Of a stretch of 64,000 nucleotides of DNA, positions 4,238 to 9,970 are shown in pieces. The translations under genes and the position numbers were made by a program. Source of the DNA: Streptomyces sp. NBC_01142. Its GTDB lineage: Bacteria > Actinomycetota > Actinomycetes > Streptomycetales > Streptomycetaceae. How positions within the stretch are numbered: the first letter of the stretch is position 1; the number at the start of each line of letters is the position of its first letter. Location: contig NZ_JAPEOR010000002.1 of assembly GCF_026341125.1 (NCBI RefSeq), positions 310,001 to 374,000 of the forward strand, given 5' to 3'. Under the pieces are notes generated by a model that was given only the letters and a program-made list of their open reading frames with translations, did not search any database and was not told where the DNA came from.

Positions 4238-5080
4238 GTGGCAGAACGACCGGCCCGCAATGCACCGAAGGCCCACGAGGCGCAGGTGGTGCGCACCGAG
4301 CGGATCACTCCGCACATGGTGCGCGTCGTCCTGGGCGGTGAGGGGCTGGCCGGCCTGGGCGTCGGCGAGGCCACCGACCACTACGTCAAGCTGCTGTTCC
4401 CGGCCGAGGGGGTGACCTATCCGGAGCCGTTCGACATCGATCGGATCCGCAAGGAGTTCCCGCGCGAGCAGTGGCCCGCCAACCGCACGTACACGGTACG
4501 GAGTTGGGACCCGGTCAACCGCGAGATGGCGGTCGACTTCGTGGTCCACGGCGACGAGGGACTGGCCGGCCCGTGGGCGGCACGGGCCCGCGTGGGCGAG
4601 ACGATGCACATCCTGGGCCCCGGCGGTGGTTTCGCCCCGGACCCGGCGGCGGACTGGCATTTGCTGGTGGGCGACGAGAGTGCGCTGCCCGCGATCGCCG
4701 CGTCGATGGAACAGATGCCTGCCGGCGCACTCGTCCATGCCTTCGTCGAGATCTCCGGCCCGGAGGAGGAGCAGAAGACCGCCACGCCCGACGGGACCGA
4801 GATCACCTGGCTGCACCGGGGCGACCGCCCGGTCGGCGAGGCGCTGGTCGCCGCCGTCACCTCGCTGGACTTCCCCGAGGGTGACGTGTGCGCCTTCGTC
4901 CACGGCGAGGCGGCGTTCGTGAAGGAGCTGCGTCGCCATCTCCGCCTGGAGCGGCAGGTACCGCGCGAGCAGCTGTCGATCTCCGGGTACTGGCGACTCG
5001 GCCAGACCGACGAGGACTGGCGCGCGGTCAAGCGCGAGTGGAACGAGCAGGTGGAACGCGAACAGGAACCCGGCGCCTGA
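4238..5080 (+). CDS. Siderophore-interacting protein (FAD-dependent ferric-siderophore reductase)
   Basis: Cytoplasmic NAD(P)H/FAD flavoprotein of the ViuB/SIP family, 280 aa, that reduces ferric siderophores to release iron. The FAD-binding pattern RTYTVRSWDP lies near residues 84-93, followed by the LHILGPGGGFAP-like segment and a C-terminal NAD(P)H domain with WRLGQTDEDW. GTG start at 4238 with GGGGAG 6-8 bases upstream. The iron box directly upstream predicts induction by iron starvation. No transporter or siderophore synthesis gene is adjacent. Confidence 0.95.
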   Translation: MAERPARNAPKAHEAQVVRTERITPHMVRVVLGGEGLAGLGVGEATDHYVKLLFPAEGVTYPEPFDIDRIRKEFPREQWPANRTYTVRSWDPVNREMAVDFVVHGDEGLAGPWAARARVGETMHILGPGGGFAPDPAADWHLLVGDESALPAIAASMEQMPAGALVHAFVEISGPEEEQKTATPDGTEITWLHRGDRPVGEALVAAVTSLDFPEGDVCAFVHGEAAFVKELRRHLRLERQVPREQLSISGYWRLGQTDEDWRAVKREWNEQVEREQEPGA

Positions 5081-5625: not shown

Positions 5626-5653
5626 CCAATCCGTACAGCCCTCGGCTACGAAT
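5626..5653 (+). promoter_or_regulatory. Putative ECF (SigK-type) promoter of the sigma/anti-sigma/photolyase operon
   Basis: CCAATCC (5626-5632), 16-base spacer, CGAAT (5649-5653). The same two elements with the same 16-base spacing occur on the minus strand at 9943-9970. From memory, mycobacterial SigK promoters have a CCATCC-like -35 and CCGAAT-like -10. The predicted start site leaves a leader of about 50 bases before GTG 5714. Autoregulation is inferred. Confidence 0.7.
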
Positions 5654-5713
5654 GCCTGACGGATGCCTGGTGGAAACTGTCCGGAAGACATCCGCACCGT
5701 GGAGGAAAGCCGC

Positions 5714-6298
5714 GTGAAACAAGCCGTACACATCGGCGGCCCCGCCTCGGCGGGCCCCGATCTGCAGGAACTGCTCGGTCTCGTGGCCAGAGGAGACCAG
5801 GAAGCCTTCTCCCGCGTGTACGACACGGTCTGCGGGCAGGTCCTCGGACTGGTACGCACCGTGCTGCGCGATCCCGCCCAGTCGGAAGAGGTGACACAGG
5901 AGGTGCTGATCGAGATCTGGCGCAGCGCCGCACGCTTTCAGCCGACCCGCGGATCGGCGATGGCCTGGATCCTCACCCTCGCCCACCGGCGGGCGGTGGA
6001 CCGGGTCCGGTCCGCCCAGGCCGCCACCGACCGCGAGCGGCGGGCTGCCCTGCTGGAGCAGATCCCCGCCTACGACGAGGTCGTCGAACAGGTCGAGGCC
6101 AGCCTCGAGCGCGAACAAGTACGGCGCTGCCTGCGCACGCTGACCGAGCTGCAGCGCCAGTCGGTGACCCTCGCGTACTACCGGGGGCTGGCCTACCGCG
6201 AAGTGGCCGAACTTCTCTCCGTGCCACTGGGCACGGTCAAGACACGACTGCGCGACGGGCTCATCCGCCTGCGCGACTGCCTGGGGGTGAGCACGTGA
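5714..6298 (+). CDS. sigK: ECF RNA polymerase sigma factor, SigK type
   Basis: Alternative sigma factor, 194 aa. Region 2 lies near residues 20-95 (FSRVYDTVCGQVLGLV, AWILTLAHRRAVDRVR) and region 4 near 130-185 (AYYRGLAYREVAELLSVPLGTVKTRLRDG, a helix-turn-helix). GTG 5714 is chosen because GGAGG ends 8 bases upstream; the open frame begins at 5663 without such a site. The stop overlaps the start of the RskA-type anti-sigma gene (GTGA), a pairing typical of the SigK/RskA (ECF19) group. A matching promoter lies upstream. The symbol marks the family, not proven orthology. Confidence 0.92.
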   Translation: MKQAVHIGGPASAGPDLQELLGLVARGDQEAFSRVYDTVCGQVLGLVRTVLRDPAQSEEVTQEVLIEIWRSAARFQPTRGSAMAWILTLAHRRAVDRVRSAQAATDRERRAALLEQIPAYDEVVEQVEASLEREQVRRCLRTLTELQRQSVTLAYYRGLAYREVAELLSVPLGTVKTRLRDGLIRLRDCLGVST

Positions 6299-7047
6299 GC
6301 ACCGCTGATCTGCACACGCTGACCGGCGCCTATGTGCTGCACGCACTCGCGCCCGACGAGCGTGCCGAGTTCGAGCGGCACCTTCAAGTGTGCCCGTCCT
6401 GCGCGCAGGAGGTACGCGAACTGAGCGCCACCGCCGGGCGGTTGGCGCTCGCGGTGGCGGTGGTACCGCCCCCCGCGCTCAAGGCGCAGGTGATGGGCCG
6501 GATCTCCGCCGAGCGCCAGGAGGCGCCCTGGGTCCCGCGGCAGGCCCGCCGTGGCGTGCGCGGCCGCCGCGGCCGGGCACTGTCGCGCTTCGCGCTGGCG
6601 GCCTGTATCGCCGCGGCCGCGGGCTTCGGCGGGGTGGCCGTCTGGCAGCACGGCGAGGCGCAGGACGCGCGCGATACGGCGCAGCGCGCGCAGCGCCAGT
6701 CCGAGGAGCTGGCCTCGGTGCTGGCCGCGCCGGACGCCAAGGCGAGCACCGCGAAACTCTCGGACGGGGGACGCGGCACGGTCGTCGTCTCACAGCGCCG
6801 GAACAAGGCGGTCTTCCTCACCTCGGGCCTGCCCAAACCGCCTCAGGGCAAGGTCTACCAACTCTGGTACAGCGATGCCGGAACGATGCGCCCGGCCGGA
6901 CTGATGGACCCCGCCGCCACCGACAGCGCCGTACTGATGGACGGCCCGCTGAACGCGGCATCGGGCATGGGCATCACCGTCGAACCGGCCGGCGGTTCCG
7001 CCAAACCGACCTCCGACCCCCTGGCCCTGGTGAACTTCCCCGCCTGA
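6295..7047 (+). CDS. rskA: Anti-sigma factor, RskA type
   Basis: Membrane-anchored anti-sigma factor, 250 aa, expected to hold the upstream sigma factor inactive. The N-terminal anti-sigma domain carries a zinc-binding H-x3-C-x2-C motif (ERHLQVCPSC). One transmembrane segment lies near residues 99-115 (ALAACIAAAAGFGGVAVW). The extracytoplasmic part is an RskA domain (GKVYQLWYSDAGTMRPAGLM). It starts with GTG inside the sigma stop codon. Release probably needs regulated proteolysis; a site-2 protease gene exists at 34.7-36 kb, but any link between the two is speculation. Confidence 0.93.
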   Translation: MSTADLHTLTGAYVLHALAPDERAEFERHLQVCPSCAQEVRELSATAGRLALAVAVVPPPALKAQVMGRISAERQEAPWVPRQARRGVRGRRGRALSRFALAACIAAAAGFGGVAVWQHGEAQDARDTAQRAQRQSEELASVLAAPDAKASTAKLSDGGRGTVVVSQRRNKAVFLTSGLPKPPQGKVYQLWYSDAGTMRPAGLMDPAATDSAVLMDGPLNAASGMGITVEPAGGSAKPTSDPLALVNFPA

Positions 7048-7060
7048 AAAAGGACGGCGC

Positions 7061-8449
7061 ATGAGTGTTGCGGTCATGCTCTTCACCTCCGATCTGCGGC
7101 TGCACGACCAGCCGGCGCTACGAGCCGCGCTGCGCGAGGCCGACGAGATCGTGCCCCTGTTCGTACTCGATCCGGGCGTACGGAAAGCGGGCTTCGACGC
7201 CCCCAACCGCCGGGCGTTCCTGGCCGACTGCCTGGCATCGCTCGACGCCGGTCTGCACGAGCGGGGCGGGCGGCTCGTGATCCGTACCGGCGATGTCACC
7301 GAGCAGGTCTGCCGGGTGATCGCCGAGAGCGGTGCCCGCGCGGTGCATGTCTCGGCCGGGGTCAGCGCCTACGCCGTACGCAGGGAGGAGCGGCTGCGCG
7401 AGGCTCTGACAGCGCTGCGGTGCACCCTGCACGTCCATGACGCGGTCGTCACCGCGCTGCCCCCGGGGCAGATCACGCCCGTCGGCCGCGACCACTTCGC
7501 GGTGTTCACACCGTACTTCCGCAAGTGGGAGGCGGCCGGGGTACGCGAGCCCGTGCCCGCGCCACGCTCCGTGGCGGTCCCCGAGCTCGCCGGCCATCCG
7601 CTGCCGCGCCGCACCGCGGTCACGGGCGTGTCGCCCCAACTGGCCAACGGCGGGGAGACGGAGGGCCGTCGGCGGCTGAGTGCCTGGCTCGCCGACAGGA
7701 GCAAAGGCATCGGGGCGTACGACGACCGGCACGACGATCTCCAGGGCGACGCCACCTCCCGGCTCTCCCCGCATCTGCACTTCGGCACCCTCTCCGCCGC
7801 CGAACTCGTCCACCGGGCACGCCGCAAGGGCGGCCCGGGCGCGGACGCTTTTGTACGGCAGCTGGCCTGGCGGGACTTCCACCACCAGGTCCTCGCGGCC
7901 CGGCCGGACGCGGCACACGCCGACTACCGTCCGCGCGGCGACCGCTGGCGCGCCGACGAGAAGGAGATCACCGCCTGGAAGGAAGGCATGACCGGCTGTC
8001 CGATCGTGGACGCGGCCATGCGCCAGCTGCTGCACGAGGGCTGGATGCACAACCGCGGACGGCTGCTGACGGCGAGCTATCTCACCAAGACCCTGTACGT
8101 GGACTGGCGTATCGGTGCCCGCCACTTCCTGGATCTGCTGGTGGACGGGGACATCGCCAACAACCAGCTCAACTGGCAGTGGGTGGCGGGCACCGGGACC
8201 GACACCCGCCCCAACCGCGTCCTGAATCCGCTCGCCCAGGCCAGGCGGTTCGATCCGCGGGGAGAGTACGTACGCCGGTGGGTCCCGGAGCTCGCCGGAC
8301 TGGCCGGGCCCGCCGTGCACCGGCCGTGGAAGCTCGATGGGCTCGAGCGGGCGCGCCTCGACTACCCCGACCCGCTGGTGGATCCGGCGGAGGGGCGGGC
8401 GAGGTTCGAGCGGGCCCGTGGACTGGACGGGCCCCGGCCCGGTTCCTGA
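7061..8449 (+). CDS. phr: Deoxyribodipyrimidine photolyase
   Basis: Light-driven repair of cyclobutane pyrimidine dimers, 462 aa, normal length for a class I enzyme. The N-terminal alpha/beta antenna domain opens VMLFTSDLRLHDQPAL. The C-terminal FAD domain has GCPIVDAAMRQLLHEGWMHNR, LLVDGDIANNQLNWQW and NRVLNPLAQARRFDP. It begins 13 bases after the anti-sigma stop with AAGGA before ATG, so it is probably in the sigma operon. That places repair of UV damage under the same control. It converges on the methyltransferase gene with only 3 bases between stops. Confidence 0.95.
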   Translation: MSVAVMLFTSDLRLHDQPALRAALREADEIVPLFVLDPGVRKAGFDAPNRRAFLADCLASLDAGLHERGGRLVIRTGDVTEQVCRVIAESGARAVHVSAGVSAYAVRREERLREALTALRCTLHVHDAVVTALPPGQITPVGRDHFAVFTPYFRKWEAAGVREPVPAPRSVAVPELAGHPLPRRTAVTGVSPQLANGGETEGRRRLSAWLADRSKGIGAYDDRHDDLQGDATSRLSPHLHFGTLSAAELVHRARRKGGPGADAFVRQLAWRDFHHQVLAARPDAAHADYRPRGDRWRADEKEITAWKEGMTGCPIVDAAMRQLLHEGWMHNRGRLLTASYLTKTLYVDWRIGARHFLDLLVDGDIANNQLNWQWVAGTGTDTRPNRVLNPLAQARRFDPRGEYVRRWVPELAGLAGPAVHRPWKLDGLERARLDYPDPLVDPAEGRARFERARGLDGPRPGS

Positions 8450-8452
8450 GCC

Positions 8453-9721
8453 TCAGGCCTCGTTCGGCGGGCGGCCCGTCTCCCCCTTCGTCAGCAGCAG
8501 TTGCTGCACCTCCAGACAGCCGGCGCGGAAGCCCGCCTCGAAGTGGGCGAGACAGAAGGTCCACATACGGCGGAAGGCCTCGTCGTAGCCGAGGGCGGCG
8601 ACCTCGTTGGCGCGTCCGGTGAAGCGTTCGCGCCACAGGCGAAGCGTCTCGGCGTAGTGCAGGCCGAAGCCGTCCCGCTCGGCAACCCGCAGTGCGGTGC
8701 ATCCGGCGACGATCTGATCGATCCTCTCGGTCGACGGCAGCATCCCGCCGGGGAAGAGGTACTTCCGGCTCCAGGCGGAGGTGGCGTGGGAGGCCGGCAG
8801 CCTCGTGTGCGGCACGGTCACCGCCTGGAGAGCGATCCGTCCGCCGGGCGCGAGCAGCCGGTCGAGCGACATGAAGTACTCCGGCCAGTGCTCCTCACCG
8901 ACGGCCTCGGCCGCCTCCACGCTGACGATCGCGTCGAAACTGCCCAGCACCTTGCGGTAGTCGCGCAGCAGAACGGTCACCCGGCCCTCCAGGCCCGCGG
9001 CGCGGACGCGCTGCCGGGCCAGCGCCTGCTGCTCGCGCGAGGGGGTGACGGTCAGTACGCGCGCGCCGCGCTGCGCCGCACGGATCGCCGACTCTCCCCA
9101 GCCGGTGCCGAGTTCCAGCAGCTGGGTGCCCGGTCCGACCTGCGCGAGATCGAGCAGCCGGTCTATCTTGCGCTGCTGCGCGGCGGGCAGGAGGTGCTGC
9201 TCCGCGGGGAAGCCGCGAAAGAGGGCGGAGGAGTACGAAAGGGTCTCGTCGAGGAAGAGCGCGAACAGCTCGTTCGACAGGTCGCGCGAGCCTTCGGCGG
9301 TGTTGCGGTACGCGGCCGGACGGCGCGGCGAACTGGTCGCCCTGCCCCCGCCCAGCCGCTGGAGCGGCTCGGGTACGAGGGCGGGGTCGTGCTCGGCGAG
9401 CACGGTCAGCACGCCGACGAGGTCGCGGGCCTCCCATTCGCCCGCCAGGTAGGACTCGCCGAAGCCGATGAGGCCCTCGGCGCCGATGCGCCGGAAGAAG
9501 GCGTGCGGATCGCGCACCTCCATGAGGGGCCCGCCCAGGCCGATCGGCTCCCTGCCGGCGAGTCGCACCCGCAGTGGAAGCCGGCGAAGCGCGCGCCGGA
9601 CGCACCGTTCGATGACGGCCGCCCGCAGCGGGGAGGTCCGGGGCAGGTGGGTCACCTCGGGCCGGTTCCGTGCGGCAACGGACGCGGCTCGCGAGGACGC
9701 GGGGGACACGGACACGATCAC
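8453..9721 (-). CDS. Cyclopropane-fatty-acyl-phospholipid synthase family methyltransferase
   Basis: SAM-dependent methyltransferase of the CfaS family, 422 aa, likely acting on unsaturated acyl chains of membrane lipids. The N-terminal lipid-facing domain (residues 40-150, FGESYLAGEWEARDL) is followed by the SAM domain with LLELGTGWGES near 200, VSVEAAEAVGEEHW and a C-terminal GFGLHYAETLRLWRERF segment. GTG at 9721 has AGGAGG 7 bases upstream and overlaps the stop of a 59-aa ORF. Members of this family often sit next to SigK/RskA-type genes, which fits the shared promoter motif. Substrate is not shown by the sequence. Confidence 0.92.
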   Translation of the reverse strand: MIVSVSPASSRAASVAARNRPEVTHLPRTSPLRAAVIERCVRRALRRLPLRVRLAGREPIGLGGPLMEVRDPHAFFRRIGAEGLIGFGESYLAGEWEARDLVGVLTVLAEHDPALVPEPLQRLGGGRATSSPRRPAAYRNTAEGSRDLSNELFALFLDETLSYSSALFRGFPAEQHLLPAAQQRKIDRLLDLAQVGPGTQLLELGTGWGESAIRAAQRGARVLTVTPSREQQALARQRVRAAGLEGRVTVLLRDYRKVLGSFDAIVSVEAAEAVGEEHWPEYFMSLDRLLAPGGRIALQAVTVPHTRLPASHATSAWSRKYLFPGGMLPSTERIDQIVAGCTALRVAERDGFGLHYAETLRLWRERFTGRANEVAALGYDEAFRRMWTFCLAHFEAGFRAGCLEVQQLLLTKGETGRPPNEA

Positions 9722-9897
9722 TTCACATCCTCCTGGGGCAGCTGACGGGGACGCAGACGGGGCGTAGGGGCGGACGGGGCCGCAGGAACAGTCCGCGCAG
9801 ACAGCGGCGGATGCCGTGGAACCGGATACCGGCGGACACCGCCGGCGTCGGCAGATGCGGGTGGCTGCGCGGCCGTAAGCCGCCGTTCCACTGTCAT
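9718..9897 (-). CDS. Small 59-aa ORF coupled to the methyltransferase (candidate)
   Basis: ATG at 9897 is preceded by GGAGGGAG (5-8 base spacing). The frame ends in TGA overlapping the GTG start of the methyltransferase (GTGA), a classic translational-coupling arrangement. The product, beginning MTVERRLTAAQPP, is Pro/Arg/Ala-rich with no hydrophobic segment and no family I recognise. The ECF-type promoter at 9943-9970 would start transcription about 40 bases upstream of its ATG. It may be a real small protein, or a leader peptide that sets up translation of the next gene. Confidence 0.45.
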   Translation of the reverse strand: MTVERRLTAAQPPASADAGGVRRYPVPRHPPLSARTVPAAPSAPTPRLRPRQLPQEDVK

Positions 9898-9942
9898 TCC
9901 CGCTCCCTCCGGGCCGGCTGGGTCACCGCGCCTCACTGGGCA

Positions 9943-9970
9943 ATTCGGTGCGACAGGGTGCCTGGATTGG
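9943..9970 (-). promoter_or_regulatory. Putative ECF (SigK-type) promoter for the small ORF/methyltransferase transcript
   Basis: Read on the minus strand: CCAATCC (9970-9964), 16-base spacer, CGAAT (9947-9943). Both elements and the spacing are identical to the motif before the sigma gene at 5626-5653. The transcript would begin near 9936. Confidence 0.7.

Follow-up and report, generated by a model that had tools for sequence, protein, structure and literature searches.

The 64,000-nucleotide stretch of Streptomyces sp. NBC_01142 analysed here (contig NZ_JAPEOR010000002.1, positions 310,001–374,000; hereafter the window) contains two copies of the motif CCAATCC-N16-CGAAT, which flank genes for an extracytoplasmic function (ECF) sigma factor, a membrane anti-sigma factor, a photolyase and a methyltransferase. 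We consider it very probable that both sites serve as promoters for the adjacent SigK–RskA (ECF19) pair and that they act through the release step, feedback and three-unit regulon proposed below. As a preliminary description of this DNA had reported, both sites are exact, with identical elements and a spacer of 16. The predicted SigK-type promoter of the sigK-rskA-phr operon lies at 5626–5653 (plus strand), while the second one, predicted to have formerly served a flavin oxidoreductase-DUF1365-cfa operon, lies at 9943–9970 (minus strand). The −10 element was located 60 bases from the GTG start of sigK at 5714 and, on the minus strand, 45 bases from the ATG (9897) of a 59-aa open reading frame (ORF) and 221 bases from the GTG start of the methyltransferase gene cfa at 9721. 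These distances depart slightly from the 40–55 bases initially given. The genome-wide search proposed in the same description, with spacers of 15–17 allowed, returned four matches versus none for the reversed pattern. Restricted to N16, the search found three exact copies of the motif across the 10.1 Mb of the genome and no copy of the reversed pattern. At two or fewer mismatches, 253 matches versus 115 for the control left no usable signal.

The sigma factor gene (sigK, 5714–6298, plus strand) matched the NCBIfam SigK model NF007228 with 292 bits (cut-off 226) and was the only one of 36 sigma-like matches in the genome to exceed this cut-off. Its product shared 93 of 186 residues with Mycobacterium tuberculosis SigK (PDB 4NQW) and at best 91% identity with its closest named relatives (the best 80 of 520 confirmed SigK relatives). 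Cys139 and Cys189 have cysteine counterparts in the alignment with 4NQW and correspond, by the family numbering in PMC7509140, to the redox cysteines 133 and 183 of M. tuberculosis SigK. The stop codon of sigK is overlapped by rskA (6295–7047, plus strand), the sole RskA_C match in the genome. The only Pfam matches of this membrane anti-sigma factor were RskA_C (1.3e-32), RskA_N (27.9 bits versus a cut-off of 27) and zf-HC2. When compared by eye, its HTLTGAYVLHAL and APDERAEFERHL agreed with the AS19-1 helix motifs HTLAGAYALDAL and LDDERAAFERHL (PMC7406223). Based on the curated model, the RskA domains, the helix motifs, the redox cysteines and the site before its own operon, the pair is classified by sequence as SigK–RskA, a class named AS19-1/ECF19 (PMC7406223), ECF19 (PMC8965627) or ECF18 (PMC7509140). 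The photolyase gene (phr, 7061–8449, plus strand; DNA_photolyase, FAD_binding_7) follows rskA in the same orientation at a distance of 13 bases, which supports its earlier placement in the sigma operon; control of the photolyase operon by SigK is plausible. The first match behind rskA was likewise phr in 31 of the 80 named loci.

The motif was conserved before sigK-linked genes of relatives, in agreement with its interpretation as the type of promoter that belongs to the adjacent SigK/RskA pair. Within the 935,509 bases searched around the sigK genes of the named loci, 66 exact sites were found; the spacer was 16 in every one of them, with lengths from 10 to 22 allowed. The reversed pattern (spacers 15–17) was absent, and 20 shuffles gave a mean of 0.15 matches (highest, 2). 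The counts here and below are of related species, not of independent events. The genes behind the 66 sites were sigK (47), a molybdopterin oxidoreductase gene (12), a flavin oxidoreductase gene (5), cfa (1) and cfa2 (1); site-to-gene distances in these loci use extrapolated starts, and the reference start of the molybdopterin gene is probably too early. Among the relatives are S. albidoflavus (L116), where sigK and the molybdopterin oxidoreductase gene each have a site, and S. griseus (L118), with one ahead of sigK-rskA-phr. Where sigK lacked an exact upstream site (33 loci), the closest N16 sequence carried one mismatch in 27 cases, two in four, three in one and four in one, versus at least three mismatches in the reversed controls. 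The free spacer positions 20–21 were nearly fixed (G in 66/66, C in 63/66), and the GC pair was present at all three exact sites of the window strain. By sequence conservation, the GC pair is part of the code, which becomes CCAATCC-N12-GC-N2-CGAAT.

In a survey of 150 genomes of the genus, with SigK presence called at E up to 1e-45, 121 genomes with SigK held 206 sites and 99 of them had at least one. The 29 genomes without detected SigK held four sites, in three genomes, and the reversed pattern gave four matches over all 150. The co-occurrence was strong (Fisher p 6e-13, a value that kinship makes a guide only). Of the three exceptional genomes, G001 has a completeness of 79%. A zinc-finger anti-sigma gene, also found behind the motif in genomes with SigK, follows one of the two G001 sites as well as the G130 site. 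The G047 site had no clear gene after it.

A chance match of the two window sites is practically negligible. One further genome match does look fortuitous, namely the spacer-15 match at C1:471946, which was dropped as it has no gene start in reach and its spacer was unseen at the relatives' sites. Against chance stand the 0.02 matches expected in the window, the lack of control matches in 10.1 Mb and the conservation of the sites in relatives. The motif could also be real and read mainly by another ECF sigma factor, with SigK merely one of its targets. This possibility draws on the 35 further sigma-like matches in the genome, none above the SigK cut-off, and on the three genomes of 29 that carry a site without detected SigK. 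The sites nevertheless track SigK across the 150 genomes (99/121 versus 3/29), and one of the three exceptions is the incomplete genome; we regard this alternative as very unlikely.

The third exact site (C2:464854) lies approximately 145 kb from the window locus and 46 bases before a gene for a secreted DUF4331 protein, which is followed by genes for a TPR protein and a NicO-type transporter. The preliminary description had proposed a local regulon; a purely local one is not supported, given this distant site before an operon that is SigK-linked across the genus. DUF4331 matches were found in 77 of the 150 genomes, and an exact site lay upstream of 25 of the 30 best DUF4331 orthologues, the window strain's included. 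At least 54 of 67 close orthologues were within 1 kb of a SigK gene, a lower bound among the SigK matches listed (one G025 match is unlisted); the count was unchanged by additional listed SigK matches from four genomes whose DUF4331 genes stand alone. Of the 64 genomes holding close orthologues, 63 have SigK, and the exception (G085) has no site. In two loci with SigK beside DUF4331 (L199 and L204), CCATCC-N16-CGAAT was observed 65–76 bases before the matched start.

In a SigK tree of 135 rows, the 30 DUF4331-linked rows formed one clade with a support of 100/99. These rows represent 27 distinct genes (L178/L194, L166/L199 and L163/L204 each stand for a single gene). The window SigK was placed in the other, photolyase/lipid group. 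The region 4.2 consensus was nearly identical in both lineages, as expected if both read the same −35 element. We tentatively propose, as a reading with a nearly even chance of being correct, that two Streptomyces SigK lineages, one with photolyase and lipid/oxidoreductase genes and the other with DUF4331-TPR-NicO, share one nearly invariant promoter code. In the window strain the second lineage would have been lost, the surviving SigK would have inherited its operon and the old lipid arm would be decaying, so that the regulon would have been swapped by gene loss with the promoter unchanged.

The proposed decay concerns the stretch from the minus-strand site to cfa. The 59-aa ORF (9718–9897, minus strand), listed earlier as a regulon member, is assembled from fragments of two genes found intact in relatives; judged from its sequence, it is the beginning of a flavin oxidoreductase gene fused by a deletion to the end of a DUF1365 gene. 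Its first residues resemble a flavin oxidoreductase start (MTVERRLTA versus M...RRRTAVVG, by eye). The DUF1365 relic occupies 9721–9863 (minus strand), with a frame change: the DUF1365 C-terminus in frame 1 of the scar gave an alignment score of 69, versus a highest score of 46 in 300 shuffles. The frame-0 tail, RLRPRQLPQEDVK, scored 48 against the DUF1365 end, RHRPRHLPQEGVK, which alone is within the shuffle range (highest, 54). The stop codon of the ORF overlaps the start of cfa, as the DUF1365 stop does in relatives. Many relatives keep both the oxidoreductase and the DUF1365 gene whole between promoter and cfa: cfa directly follows DUF1365 in 39 of the 80 named loci, and the five exact sites before a flavin oxidoreductase gene belong to the same promoter class. 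A similarly shortened arrangement was found in Streptomyces sp. ISL-1 (L051).

The adjacent cfa (8453–9721, minus strand) encodes a diverged CMAS-type methyltransferase (PF02353, 3.5e-70). In an alignment of 43 relatives, the window protein lacked seven residues (xNISHHY before DLSN) at 9283–9284 (minus strand). With L051 set aside, four of these columns were near-invariant (≥97%) among the remaining 42 relatives; at this point the E. coli chain reads HYDLGN and the 5z9o chain HYDIGN. The CMAS profile match began at position 13 in the window Cfa and at 14 in L051, compared with 5 and 6 in two intact relatives. Furthermore, the window Cfa departed from the relatives at 16 of 155 near-invariant columns, while leave-one-out departures in the relatives had a median of 1 and, apart from L051 (24), a maximum of 8. 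The dN/dS of cfa was 0.33–0.45 in five pairs with the window and 0.27–0.31 in five intact pairs; selection on cfa is relaxed, not dead. The lipid role of the surviving Cfa is doubtful on sequence grounds because the NISHHY motif kept in relatives is lost, and the confident lipid-modification arm of the preliminary description could not be maintained.

Two further explanations concern these distant and decayed parts. The DUF4331 site may be a relic of a lost second SigK lineage, unused by the resident SigK. The separate clade of DUF4331-adjacent SigK genes, with the window SigK outside it, fits this explanation, as does the lack of the exact site at seven of the 13 DUF4331 genes that are not beside a SigK gene (of the seven, one has a 1-mismatch and one a 2-mismatch form). 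It is at odds with the exactness of the site in the window strain, GC pair included, with the near-identity of region 4.2 in both lineages and with G055 and G096, which keep the site with a single SigK match each that is not beside DUF4331; on balance we find it rather unlikely. Alternatively, the 59-aa ORF could be a genuine small gene, and Cfa could be functional in methylating lipids as part of the stress response. The ORF does have a good ribosome site and a stop codon overlapping the cfa start, and cfa is open over 422 codons under persisting purifying selection. The composition of the ORF from parts of two genes, the loss of seven motif residues and the excess of departures at near-invariant columns speak against this explanation, which we judge to be unlikely and slightly more so than the relic site.

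Several observations weigh against the proposed SigK-driven regulon. The exact site is present at only six of the 13 DUF4331 genes that have no SigK gene next to them (G000, G011, G055, G068, G096 and G125). No exact site was found in 22 of the 121 genus genomes with SigK, and outside the genus 13 of 22 loci showed neither the CCAATCC nor the CCATCC form near sigK (CCATCC-N16-CGAAT was present in six). Moreover, no DUF1365 and no fasciclin match was found in the genome of the window strain, although both occur in SigK-linked operons of relatives. Of the 33 named loci lacking an exact site, however, 31 keep it with one or two mismatches. The absence of fasciclin leaves the membership of the sigma and anti-sigma factors intact, since fasciclin is a known target and not a requirement.

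In the proposed mechanism, membrane-bound RskA would hold SigK via its cytoplasmic zinc-finger domain until stress, for which light, UV or redox is our best guess, frees it. SigK-RNA polymerase would then start at CCAATCC-N12-GC-N2-CGAAT before three units: sigK-rskA-phr, combining positive feedback with photolyase; the remnant of the lipid-modification operon, of which the diverged cfa would be the sole survivor; and the DUF4331-TPR-NicO operon. The sequence provides the family, motif, spacing, SigK co-occurrence, conserved targets and deletion scar; transcription, release, signal and enzyme state are inferred. The overall picture in the preliminary description therefore stands for the SigK promoter class and the photolyase in the operon, whereas the 59-aa gene, the exclusively local regulon and the confident lipid arm do not. 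In described systems, RskA is a membrane anti-sigma factor that is cut stepwise, and a redox disulphide of SigK affects SigK–RskA binding (PMC7509140). UV lowered RskA in a soil actinobacterium, for which the authors suggested SigK (PMC8965627). In Mycobacterium kansasii, a photolyase locus and fasciclin genes that carry putative SigK sites went up in the light (PMC9861118), and in Rhodobacter capsulatus singlet oxygen raises both a photolyase and a SigK-like RpoE pair (PMC7074977). Light or UV as the signal here is a guess supported by these analogies.

The window system resembles M. tuberculosis SigK–RskA in its orthologous sigma factor, RskA-type anti-sigma factor, gene order and two redox cysteines. 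Fasciclin genes and a flavin oxidoreductase-DUF1365-cfa set are additionally present in many relatives, and this set presumably also lies beside sigK in M. tuberculosis. The mycobacterial SigK −35 element is CCATCC, compared with CCAATCC in the window. Unlike the mycobacterial system, the window strain lacks fasciclin and DUF1365 genes, has a photolyase in its operon and bears a site before the DUF4331-TPR-NicO operon. SigK sites are highly conserved in Actinobacteria, and the fasciclin genes mpt70 and mpt83 are SigK targets in M. tuberculosis (PMC7509140). M. kansasii is alike in that the fasciclin genes mpk70/mpk83, with their putative SigK sites, were raised by light, as was a photolyase locus; this locus is separate from sigK there (PMC9861118). 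One ECF factor drives photolyase and Cfa synthase in the Rhodobacter sphaeroides Sigma-E/ChrR singlet-oxygen regulon and the Vibrio cholerae blue-light regulon (PMC7074977, PMC5241685), and in the window the photolyase and the diverged Cfa units each have a predicted SigK site upstream. The Sigma-E/ChrR systems differ in their sigma and anti-sigma families and in their promoter (TGATC-N18-CGTAT in V. cholerae, PMC5241685), a form not shared by the window sites, and the window anti-sigma factor is not ChrR-type. The window system is similar to Sigma-E/ChrR in outline and is not a member. R. capsulatus RpoE is nearer to SigK than to R. sphaeroides RpoE (PMC7074977).

SigK–RskA and its conserved sites (PMC7509140), as well as photolyase and Cfa under one ECF factor (PMC7074977, PMC5241685), are already known. 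In the available portions of the literature searched on Streptomyces SigK/RskA, no description of a Streptomyces SigK regulon was found, and the searches returned nothing linking DUF4331 with sigma factors or Streptomyces and nothing on a SigK promoter with CCATCC. Nor did these searches bring up in print a genus-wide code that includes the GC pair, DUF4331 as one of its target operons or a code common to two SigK lineages. The code would define SigK promoters at the base level for a large antibiotic-producing genus and link the DUF4331 operon, so far uncharacterised, with a specific sigma factor. SigK stimuli in mycobacteria were called obscure (PMC9861118), and the present analysis adds to the hints that SigK answers light or UV. 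It also illustrates regulon erosion, in which an apparent new ORF is the scar of two lost genes.

Additional motif contexts were observed in relatives. In 13 loci (L139, L141, L149–L152, L155, L160, L236 and L238–L241), the exact motif lay approximately 105 bases before a zinc-finger anti-sigma gene of 216–218 aa (246 aa in L139; zf-HC2 in L239), which suggests that SigK feeds into another sigma circuit in these relatives; no such arrangement was found in the window's genome. Divergent pairs of SigK sites, approximately 35–62 bases apart, were present at L055:3264–3380 and similarly in L060, L066 and L100, serving the flavin oxidoreductase operon on one side and the molybdopterin oxidoreductase on the other; in L055 and L066 a fasciclin lipoprotein accompanies the latter. 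Two tandem exact sites, 69 bases apart, lay 5′ of sigK at L134:1501–1597. Single sites were assigned to DUF1295 in L154 (plus strand) and to a fasciclin gene 208 bases on in L243 (minus strand).

None of the 16 one-mismatch sites in the window strain's genome was accepted, and CCATCC-N16-CGAAT at C2:3172607 and C3:1033527 had no clear gene downstream. The best of the 16, a weak fourth candidate (G000:C1:2362219–2362246; L028, L220), reads GCAATCC, keeps the GC pair and lies 64 bases 5′ of a 129-aa ORF. Upstream of sigK, a siderophore-interacting protein gene was found in the window (4238–5080) and in 35 of the 80 named loci, and a MerR-family gene in 19, both without the motif. The convergent phr and cfa genes have three bases between their stop codons (8449–8453), so their transcripts would collide or overlap.

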